DNA from: Pseudoxanthomonas broegbernensis
Lineage (GTDB): Bacteria > Pseudomonadota > Gammaproteobacteria > Xanthomonadales > Xanthomonadaceae
DNA length: 64,000 nt
Direction of reading: 5' to 3'
NCBI RefSeq assembly: GCF_014202435.1
Contig: NZ_JACHGU010000001.1
Coordinates: 496,001 to 560,000 of the forward strand
This document shows, piece by piece, positions 27,837 through 50,306 of the stretch. Every line of letters begins with the position of its first letter. Within the stretch, counting starts at the first letter, position 1. The notes under the pieces were generated by a model, which was not told where the DNA came from, searched no databases, and saw only the letters and a program-made list of their open reading frames with translations. The translations under genes and the position numbers were made by a program.

Positions 27837-29267
27837 GTGAGCCCTCAACGCCTGCTTCCCCTCATCGTCGCCACCGCCCTGTTCATCGAGAACATGGATT
27901 CCACGGCGATTTCCACTTCGCTGCCGCAGATCGCGGCGGACCTGGGAGTGGCGCCGGTCGCGCTGAAACTGGCGCTGACCACCTACATGCTGGCGCTGGC
28001 GATATTCATCCCGGTCAGCGGCTGGGTGGCGGACCGGTTCGGGGCACGGCCCACGTTCGTGAGCGCCATCGCCGTGTTCCTGCTCGGCTCGCTGGGCTGC
28101 GCGGCCAGCGACGGGCTGGGCCAACTGGTGGCCGGCCGCTTCGTGCAAGGCGTGGGCGGGGCGATGATGGTGCCGGTCGGGCGGCTGGTGCTGCTGCGCA
28201 GCGTGGAGAAGTCCGACCTGGTGCGGGCGCTGAGCTGGCTGACGGTGCCAGCCATGCTCGGGCCGATGCTCGGGCCGGTGCTGGGCGGGGCGATCACCAC
28301 CTATACGCACTGGCGCTTCATCTTCCTCATCAACCTGCCGATGGGGCTGCTGGGCATGTGGCTGGCGTGGCGGCACATCCCGATGCTGCGGCAGCCGGTG
28401 GGGCCGCTGGACGGGCGCGGTTTCCTGCTGTCGGCCGGCGGGCTGGCGCTGGCGATGTTCGGGCTGACGGCGATCGGGCACGGGCTGGTGCCGAATGCGG
28501 CGCTCGCCGCGTGCGTGCTGGCCGGCGCCGGACTGATGGCCGGCTACGTGCGGCATGCGCGCCGCCACCCGTATCCGCTGCTGCGGCTGGACTTGTTCCG
28601 CGTGCCGACCTTCCGCGCCGGCGTGCTGGGCGGCCTGTTGTTCCGCGTCGGCATCGGCGCCACGCCGTTCCTGCTGCCGCTGATGCTGCAGCTCGGCTTC
28701 GGCCTGGACCCGCTGCAGTCGGGCCTGGTCACCTTCACCTCCACCGCGGGGGCGATGTTCATGAAGGTGGTGGCGCCGCGCATCATCCACCGTTTCGGCT
28801 TCCGTCCGGTGCTGGTGTGGAACGGGCTGCTGGCCTCGCTGCTGCTGTGCGTCTTTGGCCTGTTCCGCGCCGATACGCCGTATCCGCTGATGGTGGGCGT
28901 GCTGCTGGTCAGCGGCTGCTTCCGTTCGTTGCAATTCACCGGCATCAACGCCATCGCCTATGCCGACATCGGCCAGGAGCGGATGAGCCAGGCCAGCAGC
29001 TTGGCGGCCATGGCGCAGCAGGTGTCGCTGGCGCTGGGGGTGACCATCGGCGGCTATGCGCTGAGCGTGGCCGGCGTGCTGACCGGGCGGCCGGACGGCG
29101 CGGCGATCAACTTCACCTTCGCCTTCCTCACGGTGGGCCTGGTCTCGGCGGTGTCGGTGCTGCAGATGCGCCGGCTCGCGCCCGATGCCGGCGCGGAGAT
29201 GGCCGGCCACGCCGAGACCGGACGCGAGGTGGCCGAGCCGAAGGCGGAAGTGCGCCCGCAGGCGTGA
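27837..29267 (+). CDS. MFS multidrug efflux transporter, DHA2 (14-TM, EmrB/QacA) type
   Basis: 476 residues with 13-14 hydrophobic segments. First helix motif ENMDSTAISTSLPQIAADLG (motif D1), antiporter motif A GWVADRFGARPTF after helix 2, and motif C-like LGPMLGPVLGGAITTYTHWR in helix 5 indicate a drug:proton antiporter. The tail is charged. GTG 27837 is the start (an overlapping ATG is followed at once by a stop). CACAAT about 25 nt upstream may be the -10. It ends 43 bp before the convergent LacI-type gene. Confidence 0.9.
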   Translation: MSPQRLLPLIVATALFIENMDSTAISTSLPQIAADLGVAPVALKLALTTYMLALAIFIPVSGWVADRFGARPTFVSAIAVFLLGSLGCAASDGLGQLVAGRFVQGVGGAMMVPVGRLVLLRSVEKSDLVRALSWLTVPAMLGPMLGPVLGGAITTYTHWRFIFLINLPMGLLGMWLAWRHIPMLRQPVGPLDGRGFLLSAGGLALAMFGLTAIGHGLVPNAALAACVLAGAGLMAGYVRHARRHPYPLLRLDLFRVPTFRAGVLGGLLFRVGIGATPFLLPLMLQLGFGLDPLQSGLVTFTSTAGAMFMKVVAPRIIHRFGFRPVLVWNGLLASLLLCVFGLFRADTPYPLMVGVLLVSGCFRSLQFTGINAIAYADIGQERMSQASSLAAMAQQVSLALGVTIGGYALSVAGVLTGRPDGAAINFTFAFLTVGLVSAVSVLQMRRLAPDAGAEMAGHAETGREVAEPKAEVRPQA

Positions 29268-29309: not shown

Positions 29310-30314
29310 CTACGATGCGGGCGCCGCGGTCGACGCGCGCAGCATCAGGCTGAAATCCAATGTTTGTTGATGCGGCACTTCCACGGCCTCGATGATGGCG
29401 AGCAGGAGGTTGACGGCCCGGATGCCGATCTCCCGCATGGGCTGGGCAATGGTCGTCAGCGGCGGGGTGAGATAGCGGGACGACGCCAGGTCGTCGAAAC
29501 CGACGATCGAAAAGTCCTCCGGCACGCGGATTCCCAAGTCCCTGCACGCGGCGAGAACGCCCAGCGCCATCTGGTCGCTGAAACAGAACGCGGCGGTGGG
29601 CGCGGACGCGCGGCCCAGCAGCTTTCTTGCGGCGGCATAGCCGGACTCGACCGAAAAGTCGCCCGGCGTGATCGTCAGCATGCGCAGGCGACCCCGCGCC
29701 CTGGCAGCGGCCCTGGCCCCTTCCAGCCGTTGCCGGTGCAAGGGGTTGTCGGGAGGCCCCCCCACCACGGCGATCCGCTCGTGCCCCAGTCCATACAGAT
29801 GCTCCATCGCGGTGCGCGAGGCGGCCGCGTTGTCGATGTGGACGCTGGGAATGCCCAGCGCCGGGTCGAATTCGCATCCGTTGACCACCGGCGCGGCGGC
29901 GCCAAGCTGCTTGACGATATCCCGCGCCGTCGGCGGAAGCCGGTGTCCCAGGACGATCAGGCCGTCCGCCTCGTTGCGGGGAAGCATCTGCGCGTAGCGT
30001 TCCTCCCGTTCCGGCTGGTGCTGGGTATCGCCGAGCAGAACGGCGTAGTCGGCGGCCTGTGCGGCTTCTTCCGCCCCCTGGAGTATCTTGGCGAAGAACG
30101 GGTTGGCGATGTCCGGGACCGTGACCAGGATCTTGCCGCTTCGCTGGGTCTTGAGCGTCCTGGCCACCGTGTTGGGGACGTAGCCCAGCGCGGCGGCCGC
30201 CCGCTCGATGCGCTCGCGCGTGGCCGGCAGGACTTTCTCCGGCCGGGAGAGCGCGCGAGACACGGTGCCTGCCGAGACGCCGACGTGCCTTGCGATGTCG
30301 TAGATGGTCGCCAT
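29310..30314 (-). CDS. LacI-family transcriptional regulator of the sugar operons
   Basis: 334 residues. DNA-binding domain 1-50: TIYDIARHVGVSAGTVSRAL, then the hinge helix region NTVARTLKTQRSG. The periplasmic-binding-protein-like effector domain follows (DIANPFFAKILQGAEEAA, GLGHERIAVVGGPPDN, IVGFDDLASSRYLTPPLTTI). Members usually repress and are released by a sugar or sugar derivative. It is divergent from the TIM-barrel operon, and the perfect palindrome ATGCAATCGATTGCAT lies at that promoter. The same core is found before the convergent operon 9 kb away, so it probably controls both. Confidence 0.93.
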   Translation of the reverse strand: MATIYDIARHVGVSAGTVSRALSRPEKVLPATRERIERAAAALGYVPNTVARTLKTQRSGKILVTVPDIANPFFAKILQGAEEAAQAADYAVLLGDTQHQPEREERYAQMLPRNEADGLIVLGHRLPPTARDIVKQLGAAAPVVNGCEFDPALGIPSVHIDNAAASRTAMEHLYGLGHERIAVVGGPPDNPLHRQRLEGARAAARARGRLRMLTITPGDFSVESGYAAARKLLGRASAPTAAFCFSDQMALGVLAACRDLGIRVPEDFSIVGFDDLASSRYLTPPLTTIAQPMREIGIRAVNLLLAIIEAVEVPHQQTLDFSLMLRASTAAPAS

Positions 30315-30371
30315 GGATCAGGCCGATGTTCCCCGATGCGGTGCACAACGCGTGTCCCGAGCGTCCCATGC

Positions 30372-30377
30372 TAGGAT
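30372..30377 (+). promoter_or_regulatory. -10 box (TAGGAT) of the plus-strand sugar operon
   Basis: TAGGAT immediately precedes the operator, so +1 (about 30384) falls inside the palindrome. A bound regulator would block initiation. Confidence 0.45.
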
Positions 30378-30378
30378 G

Positions 30379-30394
30379 ATGCAATCGATTGCAT
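30379..30394. promoter_or_regulatory. LacI-type operator
   Basis: ATGCAATCGATTGCAT, a perfect 16-bp palindrome with central CG typical of LacI-family operators, 9 bp before ATG 30403. The core TGCAATCGATTGCA is repeated exactly at 39329. Confidence 0.8.
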
Positions 30395-30402
30395 GAAAGC
30401 GG

Positions 30403-31461
30403 ATGACCGTGAAGACACTCAAGGGTCCAGCGCTGTTCCTGGCGCAGTTCATCGGTGAAAAGCCTCCTTTCGATCGGTTGGACACCCTGGCCGAGTGGGC
30501 CGCCGGGCTTGGCTATTCTGGCGTACAAGTGCCGACCGGCGCGCCCCACATCTTCGATCTCGCCCAGGCGGCGCAGAGCCAGGCCTACTGCGACGACGTC
30601 GCCGGCGCGCTGGCCCGGCACGGCATCCGGATCACCGAGCTGTCCACGCACCTGCAGGGACAGTTGGTCGCCGTCCACCCAGCCTACGACACCTTGTTCG
30701 ACGGTTTCGCCCCGCAGGAGCGACGCGGCGACCCGGCGGCCCGGCAGGCCTGGGCCGTCGAGCAGGTGACGCTGGCGGCCAAGGCCAGCCAGCGCCTGGG
30801 GCTCACGGCGCACGCCACGTTTTCCGGTGCGCTGGCCTGGCCGTATCTCTACCCCTGGCCGCAGCGGCCGGCCGGGCTGGTGGAAGAGGCCTTCGCCGAG
30901 CTCGGCCGGCGCTGGCGTCCCATCCTGGACGCCTTCGACGCCTGCGGCGTGGACCTGTGCTACGAGATCCATCCGGGCGAAGACCTGCACGACGGTGCGA
31001 CCTTCGAGCGGTTCCTCGACGCCGTCGACCACCACCCGCGCGCCAGGATCCTCTACGACCCCAGCCACCTGCTGCTGCAGCAGATGGACTACCTGGGCTT
31101 CATCGACCGGTATCACGACCGCATCGGCATCTTCCACGTCAAGGACGCCGAATACCGCGCCAACGCGCGCAGCGGCGTCTATGGCGGCTACCAGGACTGG
31201 ATCGACCGGCCGGGCAGGTTCCGCTCGCTCGGCGACGGACAGATCGATTTCAAGGCGATCTTCTCCAAGCTGGCCCAGTACGACTTCCCGGGCTGGGCCG
31301 TGCTGGAGTGGGAGTGCTGCCTGAAGCATCCGGAGGACGGCGCGCGCGAGGGGGCGGCCTTCATCCGCGAGCATCTCATCCGCGTGACCGAGCACGCGTT
31401 CGACGATTTTGCCGGCAGCGGCGCCAGTCCGCAGGCGCTGCGCGGCATGCTGGGGATCTGA
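30403..31461 (+). CDS. Sugar isomerase/epimerase-like TIM-barrel protein, cytosolic
   Basis: 352 residues of the xylose-isomerase-like TIM-barrel (AP endonuclease 2) superfamily, without a signal peptide. The metal ligands expected in this fold are in LCYEIHPGEDLHDG, RILYDPSHLLLQQ, GIFHVKDAEYR and WAVLEWECCLKHPEDG. Related proteins in oxidative glycoside pathways act on 3-keto sugars as isomerases, lyases or hydratases; the exact reaction is not readable. First gene of a five-gene operon, with its start 9 bp after the operator. The MFS gene follows after 28 bp. Confidence 0.88.
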   Translation: MTVKTLKGPALFLAQFIGEKPPFDRLDTLAEWAAGLGYSGVQVPTGAPHIFDLAQAAQSQAYCDDVAGALARHGIRITELSTHLQGQLVAVHPAYDTLFDGFAPQERRGDPAARQAWAVEQVTLAAKASQRLGLTAHATFSGALAWPYLYPWPQRPAGLVEEAFAELGRRWRPILDAFDACGVDLCYEIHPGEDLHDGATFERFLDAVDHHPRARILYDPSHLLLQQMDYLGFIDRYHDRIGIFHVKDAEYRANARSGVYGGYQDWIDRPGRFRSLGDGQIDFKAIFSKLAQYDFPGWAVLEWECCLKHPEDGAREGAAFIREHLIRVTEHAFDDFAGSGASPQALRGMLGI

Positions 31462-31489
31462 TCCGACACCGACCTGGGAGGGGGAAGCC

Positions 31490-32713
31490 ATGACGTCCAC
31501 CATGTCGCGCCTGGGCGCGATGATGTTCCTGCAGTTCTTCATCTGGGGCGCGTGGTTCGTGACCCTGGGCACGTACCTGGTCAATGGCCCGCTGCAGGCC
31601 AGTGCGAGCCAGGTGGCGACGGCATTCCTCAGCCAGTCCGTCGGTGCGATCGTCGCGCCGTTCCTGGTCGGGTTGATCGCCGATCGCTACTTCGCGGCGC
31701 AACGCATCCTGGCGCTGCTGCACCTGGCCGGCGCGGCGCTGATGTGGGGCGCATCGACGGCCGCCAGCTTCAACGCCTTCTCCGGGTTCGTCTTCGGCTA
31801 CATGCTCCTGTTCATGCCCACCCTGGCGCTGGCCACCAGCATCGCGATGCGGCACATGCAGTCGCCCGAGAAGCAGTTCCCGCCGGTGCGCGTGGCCGGC
31901 AGCATCGGCTGGATCATCGCCGGCGTGCTGATCGGCTGGCTGGGCTGGGAGCAGGCCCAGCGCCTGGACTTGACCTTCAAGATGGCGGCCATCGCCTCGG
32001 CGGCACTGGGCCTGTACGCGCTGACCCTGCCGCACACCCCGCCGCTGGCGCGCGACCGCAATGCGCGGCTGGGCGAGATACTGGGGCTGGACGCGGCGCT
32101 GCACCTGCTCAAGTCGCGCGCCTACCTGGTGTTCTTCCTGGCCTCGATCGCGATCTGCATCCCGCTGTCGTTCTACTACAACTTCACCAATCCCTACCTC
32201 AACGACCTGGGCGTGCGCGGTGCGGCCGGGCTGCAGTCGCTCGGCCAGGTGTCGGAAGTGCTGCTGATGCTGGCCATGCCGTTCCTGTTCGTACGCCTGG
32301 GGGTGAAGGCCATGCTCGCGGTGGGCATGGCCGCATGGGTGCTGCGCTACGCGATGTTCGCCTTCGGCGACGCGGATGCGGGCTTCTCCCTGCTGGTGAT
32401 CGGCATCGTGCTGCACGGCATCTGCTACGACTTCTTCTTCGTCACCGGGCAGATCTACACCGATACCCACGCCGGCCCGGCGTTCCGCAGCAGCGCCCAG
32501 GGCTTCATCACCCTGGCGACCTACGGCGTCGGCATGCTGATCGGCACCTTCCTGTCCGGGGCGGTGGTGGAGCACTACACCACCGCGGCGGGCAGGGACT
32601 GGCAGCAGATCTGGCTGTTCCCTGCGGGTGTCGCGCTGGTGGTGCTGGTGGCCTTCCTGTTCCTGTTCCGCGAACGGCCGGCCGCCACGGCCGCCAACCC
32701 ATCCGCGCACTGA
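31490..32713 (+). CDS. MFS importer, nucleoside:H+ symporter (NupG) like
   Basis: 407 residues with 12 hydrophobic segments. The start MFLQFFIWGAWFVTLGTYL and QSVGAIVAPFLVGLIADRYF are typical of the nucleoside:proton symporter branch of the MFS. Members that sit in sugar operons often carry sugars or keto-sugars rather than nucleosides. ATG 31490 has the strong site GGGAGGGGGAAG. Placed between a cytosolic isomerase and a reductase, it most likely imports the product of the periplasmic steps. Confidence 0.85.
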   Translation: MTSTMSRLGAMMFLQFFIWGAWFVTLGTYLVNGPLQASASQVATAFLSQSVGAIVAPFLVGLIADRYFAAQRILALLHLAGAALMWGASTAASFNAFSGFVFGYMLLFMPTLALATSIAMRHMQSPEKQFPPVRVAGSIGWIIAGVLIGWLGWEQAQRLDLTFKMAAIASAALGLYALTLPHTPPLARDRNARLGEILGLDAALHLLKSRAYLVFFLASIAICIPLSFYYNFTNPYLNDLGVRGAAGLQSLGQVSEVLLMLAMPFLFVRLGVKAMLAVGMAAWVLRYAMFAFGDADAGFSLLVIGIVLHGICYDFFFVTGQIYTDTHAGPAFRSSAQGFITLATYGVGMLIGTFLSGAVVEHYTTAAGRDWQQIWLFPAGVALVVLVAFLFLFRERPAATAANPSAH

Positions 32714-32724
32714 GGATCAGGCAG

Positions 32725-33888
32725 ATGAGCAAGCTTGGGGTCGCCATCGTGGGTACCGGGATGATCGGCGCCGTGCATCGCCGTGCGGCGATCCTGGCCG
32801 GCGCCGTCATCAGGGGCGTGGGCGCCTCGTCGCCGGAGCGTGCCAGGGACGTGGCGCAGGCCTGGAACGTGCCGCGCGCCTACCGCGACATCGAAGAAGT
32901 CGTCGCCGATCCGCAGGTGCAGGTCGTGCATGTGTGCACCCCCAACCACCTGCACCGGGCGATGGCACAGGCCGCGCTGGAGGCGGGCAAGCACGTGGTC
33001 TGCGAAAAGCCGCTGGCCACGACGCTGGAAGACGCCATGGCCCTGGCGGCGCTGGCCGCTTCCACCGGGCAGGTGGCGACGGTGCCCTTCGTCTACCGCT
33101 ACCACCCGGTCGTGCGCGAGGCGCGCGCCCGCATCGCCCAGGGCGAACTGGGGCCGCTGCGCCTCATCCACGGCAGCTACCTGCAGGACTGGCTGCTGGA
33201 CCCCGCCAGCAACAACTGGCGCGTGGACCCGGCGCTCGGCGGCGCTTCCCGCGTGTTCGCCGATATCGGCTCGCACTGGTGCGACCTGGTGGAATGGGTC
33301 GCCGGCGAGCGGTTCGCCGAGGTCAGCGCCGCATTCGAAACCGTGATCGCCGAGCGGGGCGCCGCGACCGGCCGGAGTTTCGTCGCGCCGGCGGCGGGCG
33401 TCGAGATGCGCGCCGTGTCGAGCGAGGACGTCGCGGCGGCCCTGTTCAAGACCGGGAGCGGCACCCTGGCTTCGTTGACCGTCAGCCAGGTGTCGGCCGG
33501 GCGCAGGAACCGCCTCTGGTTCGAGATCGACGGCGCCAAGGCCAGCGTGGCGTTCGACCAGGAAGACAGCGAGCGGCTCTGGATGGGGTTTCCCGACCAG
33601 CGCGAAGAGATCTTCGTCCGCGGCCCGGCCGCGGGAAGCGCCGAGCAGCGCAGGCTCGCGGTGCTGCCGGCCGGCCATGCGCAAGGCTACGGCGACTGCT
33701 TCGGGGCCTTCGTCGCGGATACCTACCGTGCCATCGCGGCCGAGCGGCCAGAAGGCCTGCCGACGTTCGACGACGGGCTGCGCTCGGCCCTGATCGTCGA
33801 CCGCGTCATCGCATCGGCCAGGTCGCGCGCCTGGACCCCCATCGGTGGGGAGCGTCGCGAGAATCGCGCAAGCAAGATGGACGACTGA
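32725..33888 (+). CDS. Gfo/Idh/MocA family NAD(P)-dependent oxidoreductase
   Basis: 387 residues. N-terminal Rossmann motif LGVAIVGTGMIGAVHRRAA, then VVHVCTPNHLHRAMAQAALE and the hallmark HVVCEKPLATTLEDA (Lys of EKP is catalytic). C-terminal alpha/beta sheet domain with RVFADIGSHWCDLVEW. The conserved His/Asp of the family are present (DIGSHW). Cytosolic. In this operon it may reduce 3-keto-glucose or a related ketose to the normal sugar. ATG 32725 is 11 bp after the transporter gene; GAGGATCAG precedes it. Confidence 0.9.
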   Translation: MSKLGVAIVGTGMIGAVHRRAAILAGAVIRGVGASSPERARDVAQAWNVPRAYRDIEEVVADPQVQVVHVCTPNHLHRAMAQAALEAGKHVVCEKPLATTLEDAMALAALAASTGQVATVPFVYRYHPVVREARARIAQGELGPLRLIHGSYLQDWLLDPASNNWRVDPALGGASRVFADIGSHWCDLVEWVAGERFAEVSAAFETVIAERGAATGRSFVAPAAGVEMRAVSSEDVAAALFKTGSGTLASLTVSQVSAGRRNRLWFEIDGAKASVAFDQEDSERLWMGFPDQREEIFVRGPAAGSAEQRRLAVLPAGHAQGYGDCFGAFVADTYRAIAAERPEGLPTFDDGLRSALIVDRVIASARSRAWTPIGGERRENRASKMDD

Positions 33889-33968
33889 ACCTGTACCCCC
33901 TCGCTGCAAGTGCACCCTGCACGCGAGCCATTTCCCGTCCGCAGCCACCAGAATCCCGGGAGGAAACA

Positions 33969-34826
33969 ATGACCATCGCCACTCCGCGCAGAATCGCGAC
34001 CGCCGCACTTCTGCTCTGTGCCGCCCTGCCTGTCTTCGCGCAGGATGCCGGAACCCAGGCCGAACCCATCGCGGTGCAGATGTATACGCTGCGCAGCATC
34101 GCTTCGCTCGAGGACCGGTTGAAGGTCGTCCACGACGCGGGCATCCATGCCGTGGAGACCGTCGGCACGCAGAACGTCTCGGCCGAGGAGCTGAAACGGC
34201 TTCTGGACAAGTATTCGATCAAGGCGATCTCGACCCACGCGCAGTTGTCCGACCTGCGCGACAACCTCGACGACGTGGTGGCGTTCAACACGTCGATCGG
34301 CAACGCCACGCTCGTGGTGCCCTACCTGCAGGAAGGGGAGCGCCCGGCCGATGCCGCTGGCTGGATCGCGCTGGGCAAGGAGCTGGGCGGGATCTCGGAC
34401 AAGGTCCAGGCCAAGGGCATGACGCTGGCCTATCACAACCACGACTTCGAGATCGTCGATTTCGATGGCAAGACGGGCCTCGAGCTCATGTTCGAGGCGG
34501 CCGGCCCCGGCGTCGAGGCCGAGCTCGACCTGGCCTGGATCGCGCGTGCCGGCTACGATCCGGCGGCGTTTCTCGACAAGTTCCGCGGGCGCGTGTTTGC
34601 GGTCCACGCCAAGGACAACGCTCCGGAAGGCCAGGCCGAGGATGAGAAGGGCTTCGCCGCGTTGGGCAAGGGCGTCCTGGACTGGGATGCGATTCTCCCC
34701 GCGGCCGCGGCCGCGGGCGTGAAGTGGTACATCATCGAGCACGACCATCCGCTCGATCCAGCCGCCGTCGTCGAGACCGGCGCGGCCTACCTCAACGAGC
34801 ACCTTCCCGCGGGTACGGGTCGCTAG
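33969..34826 (+). CDS. Periplasmic sugar isomerase/epimerase-like TIM-barrel protein
   Basis: 285 residues. Signal peptide residues 1-25 (IATAALLLCAALPVFAQD). Xylose-isomerase-like TIM barrel: IAVQMYTLRSIASLEDRLK, TLAYHNHDFEIVDFDG, VEAELDLAWIARAGYDP, VFAVHAKDN and WYIIEHDHP hold the expected His/Glu/Asp metal ligands. Several homologues in glycoside-oxidising operons are exported like this one. I infer action on a 3-keto glycoside in the periplasm. ATG 33969 follows GGGAGGAAACA. The 80-bp gap to the upstream gene shows no terminator, so it is probably in the same operon. Confidence 0.88.
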   Translation: MTIATPRRIATAALLLCAALPVFAQDAGTQAEPIAVQMYTLRSIASLEDRLKVVHDAGIHAVETVGTQNVSAEELKRLLDKYSIKAISTHAQLSDLRDNLDDVVAFNTSIGNATLVVPYLQEGERPADAAGWIALGKELGGISDKVQAKGMTLAYHNHDFEIVDFDGKTGLELMFEAAGPGVEAELDLAWIARAGYDPAAFLDKFRGRVFAVHAKDNAPEGQAEDEKGFAALGKGVLDWDAILPAAAAAGVKWYIIEHDHPLDPAAVVETGAAYLNEHLPAGTGR

Positions 34827-34856
34827 CACGCGGGGGGCAATGCCGAATCCATCTTG

Positions 34857-35135
34857 ATGGCTGCCCTTCCCCCCCTCGCTGCGGCGCTTGCGAGCGCACC
34901 GGCTTCATCGCAGGATGCCGAGACGGGCGCCAAGCTCTACGCCGCCCACTGCGTGGCCTGCCATGGCGCCGATCGCGCTGGCGTGGCCGGAACGTTCGCT
35001 GCCCCGACCGACGTGGGCAAACGGCTCGATCGAAAGAAGATCAAGGAAGCGATCAGGAATGGGGGAGGGCTGATGCCGCCCTTCGGCCACCTGTCGGAGA
35101 AGGATGTCGAAGACCTCGCTGCCCTGCCTTCCTGA
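34857..35135 (+). CDS. Small c-type cytochrome
   Basis: 92 residues. Short signal peptide (about 1-19, AALPPLAAALASAPASSQD). Haem motif CVACH at 32-36, and axial Met73 in GGGLMPPFGHLSEKD. A one-haem class I cytochrome, exported to the periplasm. Last gene of the plus-strand operon; its likely partner, the GMC dehydrogenase, is in the convergent operon. A TTG three codons... just before the ATG could also serve as start, and no strong ribosome site is seen. Confidence 0.88.
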   Translation: MAALPPLAAALASAPASSQDAETGAKLYAAHCVACHGADRAGVAGTFAAPTDVGKRLDRKKIKEAIRNGGGLMPPFGHLSEKDVEDLAALPS

Positions 35136-35146
35136 AGCGGTGACAA

Positions 35147-35175
35147 CGGGCGCGGAGGATCGCTCCGCGCCCGTC
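35147..35175. terminator. Hairpin between the two convergent sugar operons
   Basis: 11-bp perfect stem ACGGGCGCGGA / TCCGCGCCCGT with a 7-nt loop in the 42-bp gap between the cytochrome and DUF1080 genes. Pyrimidine-rich CTCTC follows on the plus strand. Likely a shared terminator. Confidence 0.7.
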
Positions 35176-35177
35176 TC

Positions 35178-35921
35178 TCACAGCTCGCGCACCCAGACGT
35201 TGCGGAAACTGACCTTGGAATCGTGGTCCTGCAGGTAGATCGGCGCGCAGCCGTGCGGCGAGTAGGACGGCGCTCCGATGTATTCGGTCTTGCCCGACAC
35301 GATGACGGCGTCCTGCACCAGGACGCCGTTGTGCATCACGGTGATGCGGGCGGGCGAGGCGAGTCCGCCGCCTTCGGAGAAGCGCGGCGCCTTCCAGATG
35401 ACGTCGTACTCCTGCCAGAGGCCCGGGGGGCGCGAGGCGTTCACCAGCGGGATGGCCTGCTTGTAGATCGAGGCCGCCTGGCCGTTGGCATAGGTGGGGT
35501 TGTCGTAGCTGTCGAGCACCTGCAGTTCGTAAAGCTCCTGCAGGAAGATCCCGCTGTTCCCCCGGTTCTGGCCATCGAACCCTTCGATCTCGGCGGGGCT
35601 GCGCCATTCGACATGGAGCTGGATGTCGCAGAAGCGCTGCTTCGTGCGGATTCCCTTGCTGCCCGGCACCACGGTGAAGGCCCCATCGGCTACGGCCCAG
35701 GGGGCATGGCCGCCCTGTTCTCCCTCCCAGGCCGAGAGGTCCGTGCCGTCGAACAACACCACGGCATCGGATGGAGCGGCGCCCTTGGGCGTGGCGACCG
35801 CCACCGGGACCGGCGTCCACACTTCGGTCTTCGCCGGCTCGCCGCGCCGGTCGCCCTGCGCCTGTGCGAGCGCGGGCGCTGCGGCCAGGACGCAGGCCGC
35901 CATCACGATCGATCTGGTCAT
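35178..35921 (-). CDS. DUF1080 protein (3-keto-disaccharide hydrolase family)
   Basis: 247 residues. Signal peptide about 1-21 (MAACVLAAAPALAQAQ). One DUF1080 (PF06439) domain with a concanavalin-like jelly-roll fold: VVLFDGTDLSAWEGE at its start, then CDIQLHVEWRSPAEIEG, GNSGIFLQELYELQVLDSY and PIYLQDHDSKVSFRNVWVRE at the end. The family name comes from members that cleave oxidised (3-keto) disaccharides. ATG 35921 has GGAGGGAAAGACG upstream. Last gene of the minus-strand operon, 74 bp after the dehydrogenase small subunit. Confidence 0.9.
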   Translation of the reverse strand: MTRSIVMAACVLAAAPALAQAQGDRRGEPAKTEVWTPVPVAVATPKGAAPSDAVVLFDGTDLSAWEGEQGGHAPWAVADGAFTVVPGSKGIRTKQRFCDIQLHVEWRSPAEIEGFDGQNRGNSGIFLQELYELQVLDSYDNPTYANGQAASIYKQAIPLVNASRPPGLWQEYDVIWKAPRFSEGGGLASPARITVMHNGVLVQDAVIVSGKTEYIGAPSYSPHGCAPIYLQDHDSKVSFRNVWVREL

Positions 35922-35995
35922 CGTCTTTCCCTCCAGGAAGGTCGGCTCAAGCGAGCCGCGGCCTGTATCGGCTGGCCTGCACCGGCCGTCCCGCA

Positions 35996-36574
35996 TCAGC
36001 GGGTGGCCCAGGCAGGCGTGCCGGGTTCATAGGCCAGGTCGCCGTCGTAGTGGCCCGGCACGGCGACGTATCGCAGTACCTCCGTCGCGCCCACCTCGGA
36101 GGTGAAGAAGCCGAAGAGGACCAGTTGCTTGATCATCGTGAAGTAGTGCGGCTTCGCCGGCCCCGGGCTGGAACCGTCCGAGGCCACCCATGCGTTGCCG
36201 GACCGCGCCTTGGCCTCCGCGTCCAGGGTACGCAGCAGCGCGGCGCGGGCTTCGGGCGTCATCGCCATGAAGCGGCCGCCCGCGCGCTTGTCGAGATCGG
36301 CCAGGCCCGAGCGGAAGATGGCCTGGTCCTCGGGCGTGTAGCAGTCGGTCACGAACCGCGCCATGAACGGGCCTACGCCCGCATCCCTGGCCCCGGGCGT
36401 GCTGGTCCGCGGCAGGATCGTCTCCGCGATCTCGTCCAGCAGGGCCACCTCGCCCTCGGAGAAGGCACCTTCCGTGGCCGGGACCGTGGACTGCCCGTAG
36501 ACGAAGGCCGGCATGCCGATCATCGCCGCGCCGGTGGCGGCGGCGATCATTTTCAGAAGCTCGCGACGTTCCAT
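35996..36574 (-). CDS. Dehydrogenase small subunit (gluconate 2-dehydrogenase subunit 3 family), Tat-exported
   Basis: 192 residues. Twin-arginine signal: ERRELLKMIAAATGAAMIG, cleavage near FVYGQ. The domain has LLDEIAETILPRTSTPGARD, VTDCYTPEDQAIFRSGLADL and HYFTMIKQLVLFGFFTSEVG. It is a structural partner of GMC-type membrane dehydrogenases; the large subunit has no signal of its own and is carried through Tat on this one. The start overlaps the GMC stop (TGATG), giving coupled translation in equal amounts. Confidence 0.92.
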   Translation of the reverse strand: MERRELLKMIAAATGAAMIGMPAFVYGQSTVPATEGAFSEGEVALLDEIAETILPRTSTPGARDAGVGPFMARFVTDCYTPEDQAIFRSGLADLDKRAGGRFMAMTPEARAALLRTLDAEAKARSGNAWVASDGSSPGPAKPHYFTMIKQLVLFGFFTSEVGATEVLRYVAVPGHYDGDLAYEPGTPAWATR

Positions 36575-38259
36575 CACAGGTTCCCCGCTTTGAGTTCGCG
36601 CACGGCATGGTCCGCGGCCCGCGCCGTCAGCGCCATGTAGGTCAGCGACGGGTTGACGCAGCCACTGGAGGTCATGCAGGCCCCGTCGGTGACATAGACG
36701 TTCGGCGCGTCCCAGACCTGGTTGTGCATGTTCAGTACCGAACTGTTCCGGTCGCGGCCCATCCGTGCCGTGCCCATCTCGTGGATGCCCATGCCCGGGG
36801 CGTAGTCGCCCTCCACCACCCTGACGTTCTTGACGCCGGCGGCCTCCAGCATCTCGGCGGCGTCGGCGCCCATGTCCTTGCGCATGGTCAGCTCGTTTTG
36901 GCGGAGGGACACATCCATCGCCAGCACCGGCAGGCCCCACTTGTCCTTGCGGTCCGGATCGAGCCCGATGGTGTTGTCGTGGTAGGGCAGCATCTCGCCG
37001 AAGGCGGTCATGCCTATGGTCCAGTCTCCTGGCACGCTCAGCGCGTCCTTCAGGCCGGCGCCGATGTTCAGTTCGGCGATGTCGCGCGCCCAGCCGGTGC
37101 GGCTGGCCGAGCCTTGGTAACCGAATCCACGGACGTAGCCGCGCCTGTCGTCGCCGACGTTTCGGAAGCGCGGGATGTAGAAGCCGCAGGGGCGGCGACC
37201 GAAGTAGTACTTGTCCTCGTACCCCTCGACCGTGCCGGAGGCGCCCCTCTGGAAATGATGGTCCATGACGTTGTGGCCCAGCTCGCCCGAGGAGGACCCC
37301 AGGCCGCCTTCCCAGACGTCGGTGGCCGAATTCATCAGCACCCACGTCGAGTTGAAGGCCGATGCGTTGAGGAAGATCACGTTGGCCGTGTACCGGTAGG
37401 TCTGGCCGTTCTCGGCATCGATGATCTCGACCCCGCGCGCGCGCCTGCGGTCCTTGTCGTAGAGCACCTCCTTGACGATCGAGAACGGGCGCAGCGTCAG
37501 GTTGCCTGTTTTCATCGCCGCGGGTAGCGTCGCCGACTGGGTCGAGAAGTAGGCGCCGAACGGGCAGCCCAGGACGCACTTGTTGCGGTACTGGCAATTG
37601 ACGCGGCCCTGCTCGATCTTGGGCTCGGTGATGTTCGCGGTACGGGAGTGGATCAGGTGGCGGGTGCCACCGAACGCTTTCTCGATCCGCGCCGCCACGT
37701 CCTTCTCGACGACGTTCAGCGGGATGGGCGGCAGGAACTGGCCGTCGGGCAGGACGTCCAGTCCCTCGACGGTGCCGGCGATGCCCGCGAACCTCTCGAC
37801 GTGGTCGTACCAGGGCGCGATGTCGGCGTAGCGGATCGGCCAGTCGGTGGCGATGCCTTCCCGGGCGTTGGCCTCGAAGTCCAGGTCCGAGAGGCGATAG
37901 CTCTGCCGGCCCCACAGCAGCGAGCGGCCGCCGACGTGATAGCCGCGGAACCAGTCGAAGCGCTTGGTTTCCGTGTAGGGGCAGTCCTTTTCGTCGGCCC
38001 ACATGCCCAGGGTGTTCTCAGCCAGGACGTAGTCGCGCTTCAGGACCGGGTAGTCCGCCTTCATCGCCTGGGTCGGAATGTTGCGGTGCGGGAAGTCCCA
38101 CGGCTCCTTCGCCGCGTTTACGTAGTCCTTGGCGTGCTCGATGTTCCGGCCGCGCTCGAGCATCAGGACCTTGAGCCCCTTCTCGGTCAGTTCCTTGGCG
38201 GCCCAGCCGCCGCTGATTCCCGACCCAACGACGATGGCATCGTAGTGATTGTCTGCCAC
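36574..38259 (-). CDS. GMC-family dehydrogenase large subunit (glucoside 3-dehydrogenase like)
   Basis: 561 residues. FAD motif YDAIVVGSGISGGWAAKELT at residues 6-25. GYHVGGRSLLWGRQSYR and TDWPIRYADIAPWYDHVERF follow. CQYRNKCVLGCPFGAY is a cysteine cluster common in this branch and a possible Fe-S site. The C-terminal catalytic parts are GIHEMGTARMG (His) and GCVNPSLTYMALTARAAD (Asn). No signal peptide, so export depends on the Tat-bearing small subunit encoded next. The set large subunit + small subunit + cytochrome c is that of quinone/cytochrome-linked sugar dehydrogenases, including glucoside 3-dehydrogenases. Substrate position is inferred from context. Confidence 0.92.
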   Translation of the reverse strand: MADNHYDAIVVGSGISGGWAAKELTEKGLKVLMLERGRNIEHAKDYVNAAKEPWDFPHRNIPTQAMKADYPVLKRDYVLAENTLGMWADEKDCPYTETKRFDWFRGYHVGGRSLLWGRQSYRLSDLDFEANAREGIATDWPIRYADIAPWYDHVERFAGIAGTVEGLDVLPDGQFLPPIPLNVVEKDVAARIEKAFGGTRHLIHSRTANITEPKIEQGRVNCQYRNKCVLGCPFGAYFSTQSATLPAAMKTGNLTLRPFSIVKEVLYDKDRRRARGVEIIDAENGQTYRYTANVIFLNASAFNSTWVLMNSATDVWEGGLGSSSGELGHNVMDHHFQRGASGTVEGYEDKYYFGRRPCGFYIPRFRNVGDDRRGYVRGFGYQGSASRTGWARDIAELNIGAGLKDALSVPGDWTIGMTAFGEMLPYHDNTIGLDPDRKDKWGLPVLAMDVSLRQNELTMRKDMGADAAEMLEAAGVKNVRVVEGDYAPGMGIHEMGTARMGRDRNSSVLNMHNQVWDAPNVYVTDGACMTSSGCVNPSLTYMALTARAADHAVRELKAGNL

Positions 38260-38289
38260 GGGTGTTCCTCCCTTGGTGGATACTCGAAC

Positions 38290-39162
38290 TCAGGCGTCGC
38301 AGAGGCGGATCGCATCGCGCAGCGAGGCGACCGGATCGGGCGCCTCCGGAATGAATTCCTGCGCCAGGTAGCCGTCGAAGCCGGTCTGGCGGATTGCGCG
38401 GCAGATGGCCGGATAGTTGAGCTCCTGGCCCTCGCCGATCTCGTGCCGGCCCGGCACGCCTGCAGTGTGGTAGTGCACGAAGAACGGATGGTTCTTGCGG
38501 ATGGTGGCGATGATGTCGCCCTCCATGATCTGCATGTGATAGATGTCGTAGAGCAGGCCGAAGTTGCCCGATCCGATCCGCTTGCACAGCTCGACGCCCC
38601 ACGCGGAGCGATCGCAGAGGTAGTCGGGGTGGTCCACCTTGGAATTCAGGAGTTCCATCACCAGCACGACGCCGCGCTTCTCGGCATGCCCGAGGATGCG
38701 TTTGAGCCCCGCCTCGGCGTTCGCCAGCCCCTCCCCGGGGTCCATGCCGTTGCGATTGCCGGAGAAGCAGATGAGGTTGCGGTAGCCGGCATCGGCCACC
38801 AGGTCGATGTGGCGGGTGTAGCGCTCCACCAGCTCGTCGTGGAACTGGGTGGCAGCGAAGCCTTTTTCCAGGCCCATCTCCGCGCCATTGCACATCGAGC
38901 TGAACACGCCATGCGCCTTCAATGCGGGCCAGTCTTCCGGGCCGACCAGGTCGATGGCGGAAAAGCCGATGCGCCGCACTATCCGGCAAAGCTCGGCGAC
39001 GGAATACCGCTGGAACGTCCAGCGGGCAACGGAATGCTTCAGGTTGGCCCTCAGCGGTTCCACGGCGCCCGCCCGCGCGGAAACGACCCCGGGTGCGGCC
39101 AGCCCCATCCCGCCGATCATTGCGGCGCGCAGCGCGTCGCGCCGGGTGAATTTATGGTTCAA
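38290..39162 (-). CDS. Tat-exported TIM-barrel protein, hydroxypyruvate-isomerase-like
   Basis: 290 residues. Tat signal FTRRDALRAAMIGGMGLAAPG. Xylose-isomerase-like barrel of the hydroxypyruvate isomerase group: HSVARWTFQRYSVAELCRIV, GVVLVMELLNSKVDHPDYL, FGLLYDIYHMQIMEGD, FVHYHTAGVPGRHEIG and YLAQEFIPEAPDP supply the metal ligands. With a Tat signal the true substrate is a periplasmic sugar derivative rather than hydroxypyruvate. The only possible start is TTG 39162, with GAGG about 9 nt upstream. First gene of the minus-strand operon; the GMC gene follows after 30 bp. Confidence 0.88.
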   Translation of the reverse strand: MNHKFTRRDALRAAMIGGMGLAAPGVVSARAGAVEPLRANLKHSVARWTFQRYSVAELCRIVRRIGFSAIDLVGPEDWPALKAHGVFSSMCNGAEMGLEKGFAATQFHDELVERYTRHIDLVADAGYRNLICFSGNRNGMDPGEGLANAEAGLKRILGHAEKRGVVLVMELLNSKVDHPDYLCDRSAWGVELCKRIGSGNFGLLYDIYHMQIMEGDIIATIRKNHPFFVHYHTAGVPGRHEIGEGQELNYPAICRAIRQTGFDGYLAQEFIPEAPDPVASLRDAIRLCDA

Positions 39163-39328
39163 GGCAGGCCGCCTCGGCCGCGCCCAGGGCCCCAGCCGCT
39201 GTCGAACGCCAGAGCCATCCCGGTGCCGACGGCAGGCGCCGTCTCCTGACCCGCCTCAATCCGCCCGATCGAAAAGTACTCATCCTCTATCGGCCTCCCA
39301 CCGGTACAGGTAAGCAAATTCACGTTGA

Positions 39329-39342
39329 TGCAATCGATTGCA
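39329..39342. promoter_or_regulatory. LacI-type operator, main copy
   Basis: TGCAATCGATTGCA, a perfect 14-bp palindrome identical to the core of the operator at 30379-30394. Confidence 0.8.
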
Positions 39343-39354
39343 CGATAACAGCCG

Positions 39355-39368
39355 CGCGATCGATTGCA
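39355..39368. promoter_or_regulatory. LacI-type operator, degenerate second copy
   Basis: CGCGATCGATTGCA: right half identical to the main operator, left half 5 of 7. Its centre is 26 bp from that of the main copy, about 2.5 helical turns. Confidence 0.55.
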
Positions 39369-39625
39369 AGGCCCTGAATGAACCCTTGGCGCTCCGTTCG
39401 GCGAGAAAGTGCGACGGGGTTTGGAGATAGGCCCGATGCGGCAATCCCGTCCCGCACCCCTGCCATGGTTTCCGTCCGCGCCTGGCCGAGGCTTGCTGCA
39501 TTGCACCACCGAAGCGGCGCTCCCAAGCCTTGCAGCCCCGCAGGGCAGGGCGAGCCGGGCGGGCGGGGCGTGGGCGCTGTAGCCCGTGCCGGCCGGCATC
39601 GAAGGGCCGGCTTCGCCCGCGCGGG

Positions 39626-39631
39626 CATAAT
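39626..39631 (+). promoter_or_regulatory. candidate -10 box (CATAAT) for the patatin gene
   Basis: CATAAT 69 nt before ATG 39701. The message would have a leader of about 60 nt. Confidence 0.35.
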
Positions 39632-39700
39632 CCGCTGCGATGCGTGCGATCGCCCCGGGGGCGGGCCGCATCCACTCTTCTTTCGACGCGGATACGACGC

Positions 39701-42046
39701 ATGGACGACGGCAGCCCGGGGCAGTGCAGGAACGCATGGAAGAGGGTGCGATACCCGTGGGCCGGCGCCTGCATGCTGGGGACGCTGCTGGCGATGGCCG
39801 GGGGCACGGCTTCCGCGGCCGAGCCGCGGCCAGATGAATCCGCCGCCGCCGCGATGGCCGCCCGGCCCGGACCTGCACTGGCCGCAAGCGAGGATGCCCC
39901 GCCCCCGGGGCGCTCCTGCCCCCAGCGCGACGGCGATACCGCTCGCCCGCGCGTGGGCCTGGCCTTGGGCGGCGGCGGCGCGCGCGGCATGGCCCATATC
40001 GGCGTGCTGCGCAAGCTGGAGCAGATGCGCATCCCGGTGGACTGCATCGCCGGCACCAGCATGGGCTCGCTGGTCGGCGGGCTGTACGCGGCGGGCATGC
40101 AGGTGGATGCGCTGGAGAAGCTGGTGCTGGACACCGACTGGAAGGGGATCTTCGACGACTCCATCGAGCGCCGCGAGCGCACCTACCGGCGCAAGCAGGA
40201 CGACCGCGACGGCATGGCCCGGGTCGGCGTGGGCATGCGCGAGGGCAAGTGGAGCGTATCGCCCGGCGTGCTGCAGGGCGGGCGCATCCTCTCGCTGATC
40301 GAGCGCAGCACGCTGGGAGTGAGCGGCATCGACGATTTCGACGAGCTGCCGGTGCCGTTCCGCGCGGTGGCCACCGACCTCAACACCGGCGAATCGGTGG
40401 AACTGGGCGCGGGCAGCCTGTCCCGCGCGATGCGCGCATCGATGTCGCTGCCGGGCATCTTCCAGCCGCTGGAGATCGACGGACGGGTCCTGGTGGATGG
40501 CGGCATCGCCGAGCAGGTGCCGGTGGATACGGTGCGGCGGATGGGCGCGGACATCGTCGTCGCCGTGGACGTGGGCACGCCGCTGGAGGTGCTGGACGCC
40601 GACGCGGGCGTGCTGCAGGTGATGTACCAGCTCACCGGGCTGCTCACCGTGCGCAATACCGCGGCCTCCACCGATGGCCTGGGGCCGGCCGACGTGCTGG
40701 TGGTGCCGGAACTGGGCGGGGACGTTTCCACCGGCGATTTCGCCAAGGCCGCCGACGCCCTGCGCATCGGCCGGGAGGCCGCCGACGCGGCCGAGCCGCG
40801 GCTGGCGGCGCTGCCGCGCTGGCGCGGCGACGTGCCGCGGCGCGACCCGGGCGATGCGCGGCCGGTGATCGAGTTCGTGCGCCTGGAGAACGACAGCGGC
40901 TACGCCGACGCGGTGCTGGAGTCGATCATCGACGTGCCGCTGGGCAGGCTGCTGGACGCCGGCCGGCTGGAGACGACCACGCTGCGCATCTACAGCCTGG
41001 GCACCTTCGCCAGCGTCGGCTACGACGTGGTCCGCGAAGGCGGGCGCACCGGCGTGGTGGTGCGTGCACGCGAGAAGGCACAGGGGCCCAACTACCTGCA
41101 GCTCGGCTACCGGCTGCAGACCGACTTCGGCGGCACCTACGACTCCAGCCTGCGCGCGGCGCTGGTGCGCGCGCCGGCATCGCCGCTGGGCGCCGAGGCG
41201 CGGGTGATGGTGGACCTGGGCAGCGAGCCGGCCCTGCGCGGCGAGTACTACCATCCGTTCGATCCGCAGGCGCGCTGGTACTTCCACGGCATCGCCAGCG
41301 CCTGGAACGACAACGTCCCGCTGTTCGACGCCGGTGGCCACCGCATCGCCACCTACGATGCGCGGCTGGCCAGCCTGCGCCTGGGCCTGGGGCGCACCCT
41401 CGGCCGCTACGGCGCGCTGGACGCGGGCATCGAGCGCACGGTGGGCAATGCCAGCGTGGAAGTCGGCGACCCGGCCCTGCCCAAGGTGGAGGTGGCCTCG
41501 GGGGTCTGGTTCGCCACCGGCATCATCGACCGCCTGGACAGCCTCTACTTCCCGCGCCATGGCCATGCGCTGCGGCTGGGCTACCGTGCCACCAGCGGCT
41601 GGCTGGGCGGCGAGGCCGATTTCTCGCTGGCCAGCCTGGAACTGCTGGCCGCGCGCAGTTTCGGCCGCGGCGCGGTGCAGGCGGGCTGGTCCTGGCGCAG
41701 CACCCTGTCGGGGGCGCTGCCGCTGCACGAGCGCATCGCCATGGGCGGGCGCGGCAACCTGGTCGGCTTCCGCTACAACGAGTTGACCGGCCAGCATGCC
41801 TCGGTGCTGATGCTGGGCTACAGCTACCAGTTGGCCACGGTCTTCGGGCGCTCGGCGGTGGTGGGCGCCACGCTGGAATACGGCAACGCCTGGGAGCGAC
41901 GGCGCGACATGCGCTGGTCCGACGGCGTGGCCAACGGCAGCGCCTACATCGGTTTCGATTCCTGGATCGGGCCGATGCTGTTCGGCTATGGCGCGCGCGA
42001 AGGCGGCCAGGACCTGTTCTTCCTGGAGATCGGGCAGCCGTTCTGA
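39701..42046 (+). CDS. Patatin-like phospholipase autotransporter (type Vd, PlpD-like)
   Basis: 781 residues. N-terminal hydrophobic signal about 19-40 (WAGACMLGTLLAMAGGTASA) and a low-complexity stretch to about 80. The patatin domain (84-285) has oxyanion loop LGGGGARGMAH, nucleophile Ser120 in GTSMG and Asp266 in VDGG, so the Ser-Asp dyad is complete. A POTRA-like segment (about 385-465) leads to a 16-strand Omp85-type barrel ending FFLEIGQPF with terminal Phe. This is the build of Pseudomonas PlpD, in which the barrel puts the lipase on the outer surface. ATG 39701 gives a suitable signal peptide. Confidence 0.92.
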   Translation: MDDGSPGQCRNAWKRVRYPWAGACMLGTLLAMAGGTASAAEPRPDESAAAAMAARPGPALAASEDAPPPGRSCPQRDGDTARPRVGLALGGGGARGMAHIGVLRKLEQMRIPVDCIAGTSMGSLVGGLYAAGMQVDALEKLVLDTDWKGIFDDSIERRERTYRRKQDDRDGMARVGVGMREGKWSVSPGVLQGGRILSLIERSTLGVSGIDDFDELPVPFRAVATDLNTGESVELGAGSLSRAMRASMSLPGIFQPLEIDGRVLVDGGIAEQVPVDTVRRMGADIVVAVDVGTPLEVLDADAGVLQVMYQLTGLLTVRNTAASTDGLGPADVLVVPELGGDVSTGDFAKAADALRIGREAADAAEPRLAALPRWRGDVPRRDPGDARPVIEFVRLENDSGYADAVLESIIDVPLGRLLDAGRLETTTLRIYSLGTFASVGYDVVREGGRTGVVVRAREKAQGPNYLQLGYRLQTDFGGTYDSSLRAALVRAPASPLGAEARVMVDLGSEPALRGEYYHPFDPQARWYFHGIASAWNDNVPLFDAGGHRIATYDARLASLRLGLGRTLGRYGALDAGIERTVGNASVEVGDPALPKVEVASGVWFATGIIDRLDSLYFPRHGHALRLGYRATSGWLGGEADFSLASLELLAARSFGRGAVQAGWSWRSTLSGALPLHERIAMGGRGNLVGFRYNELTGQHASVLMLGYSYQLATVFGRSAVVGATLEYGNAWERRRDMRWSDGVANGSAYIGFDSWIGPMLFGYGAREGGQDLFFLEIGQPF

Positions 42047-42207
42047 GCGCGCGCAACGTCGTACGCCGGCAGGCCGGCGCGCGAGGCCGCGCGTTTCGCA
42101 GCCCGCCCACGCGCCGTCATCGTCATCGTTGCCATGTGAGCGATATCAGTCCCCGCGCCGGATGCGGCCGGGTTACCCTCGGCCATCCACGCAATGGGGA
42201 GAGAATC
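42047..42207 (+). other. Gap between patatin and GH30 genes
   Basis: 161 bp with GC-rich inverted repeats (for example GCCGGCAGGCCGGC near 42066). TTACCCTCGG about 37 nt before the GH30 start is a candidate -10. No terminator with a T-run. Confidence 0.35.
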
Positions 42208-43661: not shown

Positions 43662-43679
43662 CGCAGGCCGCGGCCTGCG
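43662..43679. repeat. Perfect 18-bp palindrome between convergent genes
   Basis: CGCAGGCCGCGGCCTGCG, with no loop, in the 37-bp gap between the GH30 stop and the stop of the spermidine-synthase-like gene. It may act as a transcription end point for both, although no T-run follows. Confidence 0.6.
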
Positions 43680-50274: not shown

Positions 50275-50306
50275 GCACGAAAGCCGGTCTCGGCCTGTGC
50301 CCCTCT

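Follow-up and report, generated by a model that had tools for sequence, protein, structure and literature searches.

A probable LacI-controlled gene cluster for non-hydrolytic glycoside cleavage in Pseudoxanthomonas broegbernensis

Introduction

The non-hydrolytic cleavage of glycosides has been worked out only recently, and a pathway in Bacteroides was reportedly the subject of work in 2024. In Agrobacterium tumefaciens, the eliminase AtOGE (structure 8bvk) converts 3-keto-phlorizin into phloretin and 2-hydroxy-3-keto-glucal (Bitter et al. 2023, PMC10628242). As outlined in that paper, the AtOGE gene shares a putative operon with those of GlycDH, AtHYD and another oxidoreductase; the enzyme prefers beta-configured substrates and does not cleave 3'-keto-maltose. 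The same account terms the hydratase role of AtHYD preliminary, and it names a partner from the twin-arginine (Tat) pathway for a Rhizobium homologue of the glycoside dehydrogenase (PMC10628242). In Bacteroides thetaiotaomicron, according to a description published in 2026, a lyase also hydrates (PMC13273386). Here we analyse a ten-gene cluster in a stretch of 64,000 nucleotides from Pseudoxanthomonas broegbernensis (contig NZ_JACHGU010000001.1, positions 496,001 to 560,000 of the forward strand), which we call the window and in whose numbering all coordinates are given. The cluster consists of a LacI-family repressor gene and two convergent operons, and it likely lets the bacterium cut plant-type sugar glycosides by oxidation, elimination, rehydration and reduction, that is, not by ordinary hydrolysis.

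Results

Orthologues of a hydratase and an eliminase

The plus-strand operon (30403-35135) encodes, in this order, the TIM-barrel protein TIM1, a transporter of the major facilitator superfamily (MFS), an oxidoreductase of the Gfo/Idh/MocA family (hereafter Gfo), the TIM-barrel protein TIM3 and a cytochrome c. The minus-strand operon (39162-35178) encodes a further TIM-barrel protein, TIM2, followed by a GMC-family dehydrogenase, its small subunit and a DUF1080 protein. A sequence of oxidation at C3, beta-elimination, hydration and reduction is the most likely chemistry for this gene set, because TIM1 and TIM3 are orthologous to 8ro4 and 8bvk, respectively.

TIM1 (30403..31461, plus strand), in which no leader was seen, matches 8ro4 over its full length (residues 3-352; E 5.7e-180), with 253 of 350 residues identical (72.3%). 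The structure 8ro4 was deposited under the name 2-hydroxy-3-keto-glucal hydratase, and we take it to be the Agrobacterium form of that enzyme. The conserved start of TIM1 is probably codon 3, the GTG at 30409, which is where the 8ro4 protein begins.

TIM3 (33969..34826, plus strand) bears a Sec-like leader and resembles AtOGE over nearly its full length, with 144 of 251 residues identical to 8bvk (57.4%; E 5.7e-97). According to the description of the AtOGE active site, the metal ligands are His132, Asp163, His189 and Glu233 (weak), and the catalytic residue is His134 (PMC10628242). The residues His132, His134, Asp163, His189 and Glu233 correspond to H156, H158, D187, H213 and E257 of TIM3, and all five are kept.

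Between these two genes lie the MFS importer (31490..32713, plus strand; PF03825, 369 bits), a member of the nucleoside-H+ symporter (NupG-like) family, and Gfo (32725..33888, plus strand; PF01408), a probable cytosolic 3-keto-sugar reductase. A relative of Gfo occurs within 3 kb of a relative of TIM1 in 76 of 80 loci, and Gfo is 84-93% identical among the family loci compared. The operon ends with a small c-type cytochrome (34854..35135, plus strand; CVACH motif; PF13442), likely the electron acceptor of the dehydrogenase.

A putative repressor and two matching operators

The repressor gene (29310..30314, minus strand; PF00356 and PF13377; helix-turn-helix GVSAGTVSR) is divergent from the plus operon, with 88 bases between it and the annotated TIM1 start. 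Operator 1, TGCAATCGATTGCA, lies in this gap at 30380..30393, immediately downstream of an extended -10-like element, TGCTAGGAT, at 30369-30377. The identical palindrome recurs at 39329..39342 (operator 2), so that each of the convergent operons starts with an exact copy; from operator 2 to the annotated TTG start of TIM2 there are about 170 bases, which include a leader frame of 43 codons. When at most one mismatch is allowed, TGCAATCGATTGCA occurs at these two places only in the entire genome (3,472,589 bases in 32 contigs), and the reversed palindrome, used as a control at the same tolerance, has no match in it. With up to two mismatches, the window contains three matches against 0.18 expected, and three were reached in none of 100 shuffles.

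We then asked how far this arrangement is conserved in the bacterial family to which the genome belongs, using as a marker a TIM1 orthologue at E <= 1e-100. The marker is present in 81 of the 395 family genomes sampled (our own genome included), distributed over 8 of 54 genera. Cluster stretches were compared from this genome and from all 80 other marker-bearing ones; the loci L003-L006 were left out of the 81, being probably from the same genomes as L132, L169, L181 and L191. A gene was counted as present at an identity of at least 50% (at least 40% for the cytochrome) and a coverage of at least 35%. By this measure all ten genes are found in 65 of the 81 loci and all but the cytochrome in 13; the rest are one locus that has all but TIM2 and one with three genes only, both cut by contig ends, and the locus L196. 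The operator, with at most two mismatches, precedes TIM1 in 81 of 81 loci (perfectly in 63) and TIM2 in all 77 loci that could be scored (perfectly in 56); the four others either end within the TIM2 start (L174), are cut at contig ends (L188, L211) or have no minus operon (L196). In an alignment of 22 rows (the window, 20 genomes and Xanthomonas sacchari), the mean column identity inside the two operators is 98% and 97%, versus 64% and 67% in flanks that were left ungapped and whose conservation is thus understated.

The repressor and its presumed sites also change together. Residue 14 of LacI, which falls in the helix-turn-helix, is Thr in 18 genomes and Ser in 63. The operator changes G2T and/or C13A are present before TIM1 in all 18 Thr14 genomes and in none of the 63 Ser14 genomes, and before TIM2 in all 16 testable Thr14 genomes and in 0 of 61 with Ser14; on the tree, each of the three traits (residue 14 and the two operators) requires three changes. 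The coupling is not perfect, since L129, with Ser14, has a different single change at position 13 of its TIM2 site, and four Ser genomes of genus g15 have a single operator change at position 1.

As would be expected of a LacI regulon, the palindrome stands at both promoters, is conserved, and is found at few places elsewhere: of two other family genomes scanned at up to one mismatch, G031 has just two sites, both inside its cluster copy, and G022 has three, of which one precedes TIM1. There is strong indirect evidence, therefore, that this LacI would bind both sites, and a single repressor probably switches the ten-gene cluster by way of two matching operators. An original prediction for this DNA had described both operons, with their genes and gene order, the palindrome at the start of the plus operon and upstream of the minus operon, and a single LacI circuit over the two. 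The genes and their order are confirmed, with the start of TIM1 refined to the GTG named above, the palindrome is exact at both places, and the single circuit gains support from the conservation of the operators and from the co-change at residue 14. The search for the same gene set and operator in relatives that had been proposed there gave the counts reported above (65 of 81 loci for the ten genes, 81 of 81 and 77 of 77 for the operators).

Three further features of the operon leaders were considered. A weak third match to the palindrome, with two mismatches (39355..39368), overlaps a -35-like TTGCAA box, and given this overlap it is probably not a separate operator. The short leader frame before TIM2 (39152..39283, minus strand), as read from the sequence, is preceded by GGGAGG and overlaps the TIM2 start; in several relatives an ATG stands at the equivalent place and shares the reading frame of the TIM2 Tat leader. 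An Rfam riboswitch in the leaders was considered and rejected, as the sole Rfam match at the gathering threshold in the whole window is a glycine riboswitch (RF00504, 59.2 bits; 50295-50412, minus strand), located upstream of a glycine dehydrogenase gene.

The dehydrogenase operon

The GMC flavoprotein (36574..38259, minus strand; PF05199/PF00732; motifs with C222/C228/C232, H493 and N536) has no leader of its own, and the small subunit (35996..36574, minus strand; PF13618) carries the twin-arginine motif ERRELLKM. GMC domains, a Tat-type small subunit and a c-type cytochrome are thus found in one locus, the composition of a multi-subunit GMC sugar dehydrogenase; these domains and this motif support the three-part dehydrogenase that had been predicted. 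The GMC protein aligns with the large subunits of fructose and glucose dehydrogenases, and its three cysteines align with those of fructose dehydrogenase, a cytochrome-linked enzyme in which the three cysteines bind an iron-sulfur cluster. The GlycDH of Agrobacterium is presumably of GMC type as well.

TIM2 (38290..39162, minus strand; PF01261) is a twin-arginine protein that resembles hydroxypyruvate isomerases and ketose 3-epimerases. Across 13 aligned proteins, residues E170, D206 and E269 never vary, but H232 is constant only within the seven proteins of set A1. With 96.8 bits against an NCBIfam cut-off of 353.45, TIM2 is a relative of hydroxypyruvate isomerase and not a member of that family. 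Among solved proteins, 3ngf (109.1 bits), 1k77 (69.2 bits) and structures of hydroxypyruvate-isomerase-like and ketose 3-epimerase type lie closest to it; more distantly than 3ngf, its profile reaches 6wn6 (49.6 bits), a 3-keto-D-glucoside 4-epimerase that we take to be YcjR. Outside the family, a GMC gene adjoins the TIM2 relative in six of seven stretches, the seventh showing none, and by this neighbourhood TIM2 is tied to the predicted dehydrogenase.

The DUF1080 protein (35178..35921, minus strand), which has a Sec-like leader, belongs to PF06439, a family that includes 3-keto-disaccharide hydrolases, with 143.3 bits against a Pfam gathering threshold of 26.8. An NCBIfam scan of the protein gave no match; its solved relative 4qhz (246 bits) was deposited as a putative glycosyl hydrolase.

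Export leaders

By a simple hydrophobicity rule, a leader is present in all 80 family orthologues of TIM3 and in 77 of the 79 of DUF1080, the other two falling just below the threshold. A twin-arginine motif is found in 77 of 78 TIM2 orthologues (the 78th is cut) and in all 79 small subunits. The same hydrophobicity rule is satisfied by only 11 of 81 TIM1, 2 of 80 Gfo and 0 of 79 GMC upstream frames, most of which are non-coding. The cytochrome of the window begins with a hydrophobic stretch that would serve as its leader. That some of the proteins bear leaders while others do not agrees with the division between periplasm and cytosol that had been predicted.

Relatives of TIM3 were found in 17 of 398 genomes of the phylum, five of them inside the family. 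Outside it, six relatives of the same class (39-61% identical) bear a leader; among six from other classes (37-40%), four are plainly without one and two are ambiguous. Relatives with a leader also occur in Pseudomonas (L066 and L076, 49% and 52% identical), Paracoccus (L094, 59%) and Ketogulonicigenium (L096, 61%). In 8bvk, just six residues of the AtOGE chain precede the match to TIM3, and the main text of the paper mentions neither a signal peptide nor a truncation for AtOGE (PMC10628242). Export may vary, that is, even among close eliminases.

Because the hydratase of the window, TIM1, would stay inside the cell, the glucal would have to be imported, or else hydrated outside by another exported protein, for which DUF1080 and TIM2 are candidates. 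Since the eliminase bears a leader and neither the hydratase nor the reductase does, the NupG-like transporter may import the unsaturated glucal. The import step of the original prediction is therefore kept, with the qualification that the imported species may be the glucal instead of a keto sugar.

Proposed pathway and its alternatives

We consider it probable that the cluster is a self-contained regulon under LacI control, through which glucosides, probably beta-O-glucosides, would be used by non-hydrolytic oxidation, beta-elimination, hydration and reduction. In the periplasm, the GMC protein, exported together with its Tat small subunit, would oxidise the C3 hydroxyl of the glycosyl residue and pass the electrons to cytochrome c. 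TIM3 would then remove the aglycone by metal-dependent beta-elimination, leaving 2-hydroxy-3-keto-glucal, and the MFS protein would import either the glucal or 3-keto-glucose formed from it outside. In the cytosol, TIM1 would hydrate the glucal to 3-keto-glucose, which Gfo would reduce to glucose. For other linkages, DUF1080 probably offers a second way of cleaving or hydrating in the periplasm. TIM2 is probably an epimerase or isomerase that reshapes keto-glycosides, or else another lyase. LacI, bound at the start sites, would block both promoters until released by a pathway sugar. In this scheme we infer that C3 is the carbon oxidised and that LacI represses, and likewise which substrates are used, which species is imported and what MFS, Gfo, DUF1080 and TIM2 do.

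A further proposal is more tentative, and we think it somewhat more likely to fail than to hold: that, with the eliminase outside the inner membrane and the hydratase inside, the MFS protein carries the reactive enone 2-hydroxy-3-keto-glucal inward, and that TIM2, exported through its Tat leader, acts on keto-glycosides in the periplasm as an epimerase or isomerase of an undescribed kind, which widens the range of glycosides used.

It is important to weigh this pathway against other uses of the same genes. In the original prediction, the 3-keto-glycoside is split in the periplasm through hydrolysis by DUF1080, the cell takes up 3-keto-glucose and reduces it, and the TIM barrels act only as isomerases. 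DUF1080 and GMC do share an operon, which fits that model. However, two of the three TIM barrels, described there merely as isomerase-like, are orthologues of an eliminase whose activity has been shown (8bvk, for TIM3) and of a hydratase so named (8ro4, for TIM1); the active-site residues of the eliminase are kept in TIM3, and TIM1 and TIM3 stand with MFS and Gfo under operator 1. We regard the model as unlikely. Of its DUF1080 step, hydrolysis could still take place, but it need not be the main cleavage, elimination being more probable in view of the match between TIM3 and 8bvk.

More doubtful still is the reading of the GMC complex as a dehydrogenase of the gluconate/2-keto type, or another that attacks a free sugar at a different carbon, with the cluster serving to degrade a keto-aldonate or other ketose. 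It would explain why the Pfam name of the small subunit is gluconate 2-dehydrogenase subunit 3, and why TIM2 resembles hydroxypyruvate and 2-oxo-tetronate isomerases, although under their cut-offs. Yet the families of TIM1 and TIM3 are named for, or characterised on, 3-keto-glycosides and the product of elimination, and a Pfam scan of the ten proteins returned no aldonate kinase, aldolase or dehydratase; simple gluconate oxidation was considered too, and rejected. We give hardly any credence to catabolism of a cyclitol of the inositol type. It was suggested by the IolE model, which TIM1 and TIM3 match weakly, and by the IolG model, which Gfo matches weakly. These matches, with scores of 67.6 and 46.8 against a curated cut-off of 290 for IolE and of 109.2 against 355 for IolG, are far too low, whereas those to the hydratase and the eliminase are strong and near full length, and we rejected this reading as well.

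Turning back to the oxidation and elimination pathway under LacI control, several observations weigh against it. The closest solved relatives of GMC are fructose and glucose dehydrogenases, and its oxidation of C3 is read from its operon partners only. Gfo falls far under every NCBIfam cut-off among its matches; the best match, levoglucosan dehydrogenase, gives 194.7 bits against a cut-off of 650, short of membership. Gfo is also only 28-35% identical to the Gfo protein beside TIM1 in 71 loci outside the close family set. The leaders were judged by eye, by the hydrophobicity rule and by the twin-arginine motif, with no trained predictor. Thirteen of the 81 family loci have no cytochrome match of at least 40%, and L196 has only the five genes from LacI to TIM3, with no minus operon in an uncut stretch of 15 kb. 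Finally, the covariation of LacI and operator comprises two independent pairs on supported branches and three in all, which go in the same direction but yield a sign test p of 0.5, significance being out of reach with so few. The sequence does establish which genes are present, that TIM1 and TIM3 have the orthologues named above, which proteins bear predicted leaders, where the operators lie, and that operator and LacI change together. As to Gfo, TIM1 and a predicted Gfo reductase are a standing pair, in which the family of the window uses a different Gfo subfamily; the window's cluster seems to have taken on a reductase of another subfamily, and we infer that reduction by this protein would take place in the cytosol.

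Distribution and neighbouring genes

Within the genus of the window, the TIM1 marker is present in 1 of 17 genomes. Eight congeners were compared by DNA over the stretch that follows the upstream MFS gene (27837-29267), and in none does this stretch match the cluster. In congener G009, that MFS gene is followed, after about 740 bases, by the sequence found at 43678; four congeners have several kb of other DNA and then the sequence near 44610; G007 has 4.2 kb of other DNA at the place of the cluster, with the patatin and GH30 genes present; and of the last two stretches, one shows the MFS gene only and one ends early. Both gain by transfer and repeated loss fit this pattern. A tree built from TIM1, MFS, Gfo and GMC places the window among members of genus g47, with a support of 99.

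Copies of the cluster are found on large plasmid records of Xanthomonas sacchari. Paracoccus and Ketogulonicigenium also have copies on large plasmid records, but in rearranged form: the stretch there includes ATP-binding cassette (ABC) transporter genes and lacks an MFS gene. The operator was not found at up to two mismatches in the stretches from L094 or L096. In L011, an uncultured alphaproteobacterium, sites with two mismatches stand before MFS and before GMC.

Next to the cluster in the window lie genes for a patatin/Omp85 protein and a GH30 glycosidase (39620-43653), at a spot that varies between congeners. Three loci of genus g47 (L129, L135 and L145) have a second, distant pair of DUF1080 and GMC genes (26-34% identical) between the two operons. 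In relatives from Pseudomonas, Salinicola and Halomonas (L052, L066, L068, L071 and L075), a different perfect palindrome, TGTAACCGGTTACA, stands upstream of Gfo-TIM1-MFS, perhaps the site of another LacI subfamily.

Discussion

From this locus it would seem that, in many members of a single bacterial family, glycosides are cleaved in the periplasm and the pathway is finished in the cytosol; the locus also points to a transporter, to an exported TIM-barrel protein (TIM2) and to a simple regulatory handle. Its interest, which we judge to be moderate, lies mainly in the split between periplasm and cytosol, in TIM2, and in a well-supported LacI circuit. As a whole, the system is not the possibly novel version that had been predicted: the chemistry is published, the marker occurs in about a fifth of the family genomes sampled (81 of 395), and most of these loci (65 of 81) have all ten genes. 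In searches limited to open-licence papers, we found no description of a leader-bearing eliminase together with a leader-bearing TIM2, a cytosolic hydratase, an importer of the NupG-like kind and a LacI switch with two operators, and these searches returned no paper that combines the gene set with Xanthomonas.

The comparison with Agrobacterium is the closest in chemistry. Like the operon outlined in PMC10628242, the window has an eliminase orthologue, a second TIM barrel of hydratase type, a flavin-type glycoside dehydrogenase and a Gfo reductase, and the four-step chemistry is the same as proposed there. Unlike the operon as outlined, the window has a cytochrome c, DUF1080, a Tat-type TIM2, a NupG-like importer and a LacI circuit with two operators; TIM3, unlike the chain in 8bvk, bears a leader. 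In the order of G803 (297 genomes searched), an Agrobacterium-like eliminase had no match at 1e-70, although Agrobacterium itself may not be in that set.

The lactose 3-dehydrogenase locus of Caulobacter, LacABC, shares with the window a membrane-bound periplasmic dehydrogenase and a DUF1080 protein with a putative signal peptide, as described in PMC9007349. The locus L015 of C. vibrioides, which would be this lac locus, contains relatives of LacI (52% identical), DUF1080 (50%), TIM1 (76%), GMC (58%) and the small subunit (34%). It differs from the window in having no TIM2 match in its 21-kb stretch, in counterparts of TIM3, MFS and Gfo that are only 28-33% identical, in its gene order, and in a best operator-like match with three mismatches.

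Two other systems resemble the window in part. In the levoglucosan cluster LgdA/B1/B2/C of Bacillus smithii, as presented in PMC7676230, Gfo and TIM-barrel enzymes likewise carry out oxidation, elimination, hydration and reduction, and a LacI gene lies close to the cluster; there, however, oxidation is performed by LgdA, dependent on nicotinamide adenine dinucleotide (NAD), instead of by an exported GMC complex, and the cluster includes ABC transporter genes. With YcjQRS of Escherichia coli, in the account of PMC11543891, the likeness is that the TIM2 profile reaches 6wn6, an enzyme acting on 3-keto-glucosides, although 3ngf and 1k77, not 6wn6, are the solved proteins closest to TIM2. The chemistry is thus already known from Agrobacterium, from Bacillus smithii and, with DUF1080, from Caulobacter; what may be new in the window is the division of the pathway across the inner membrane.

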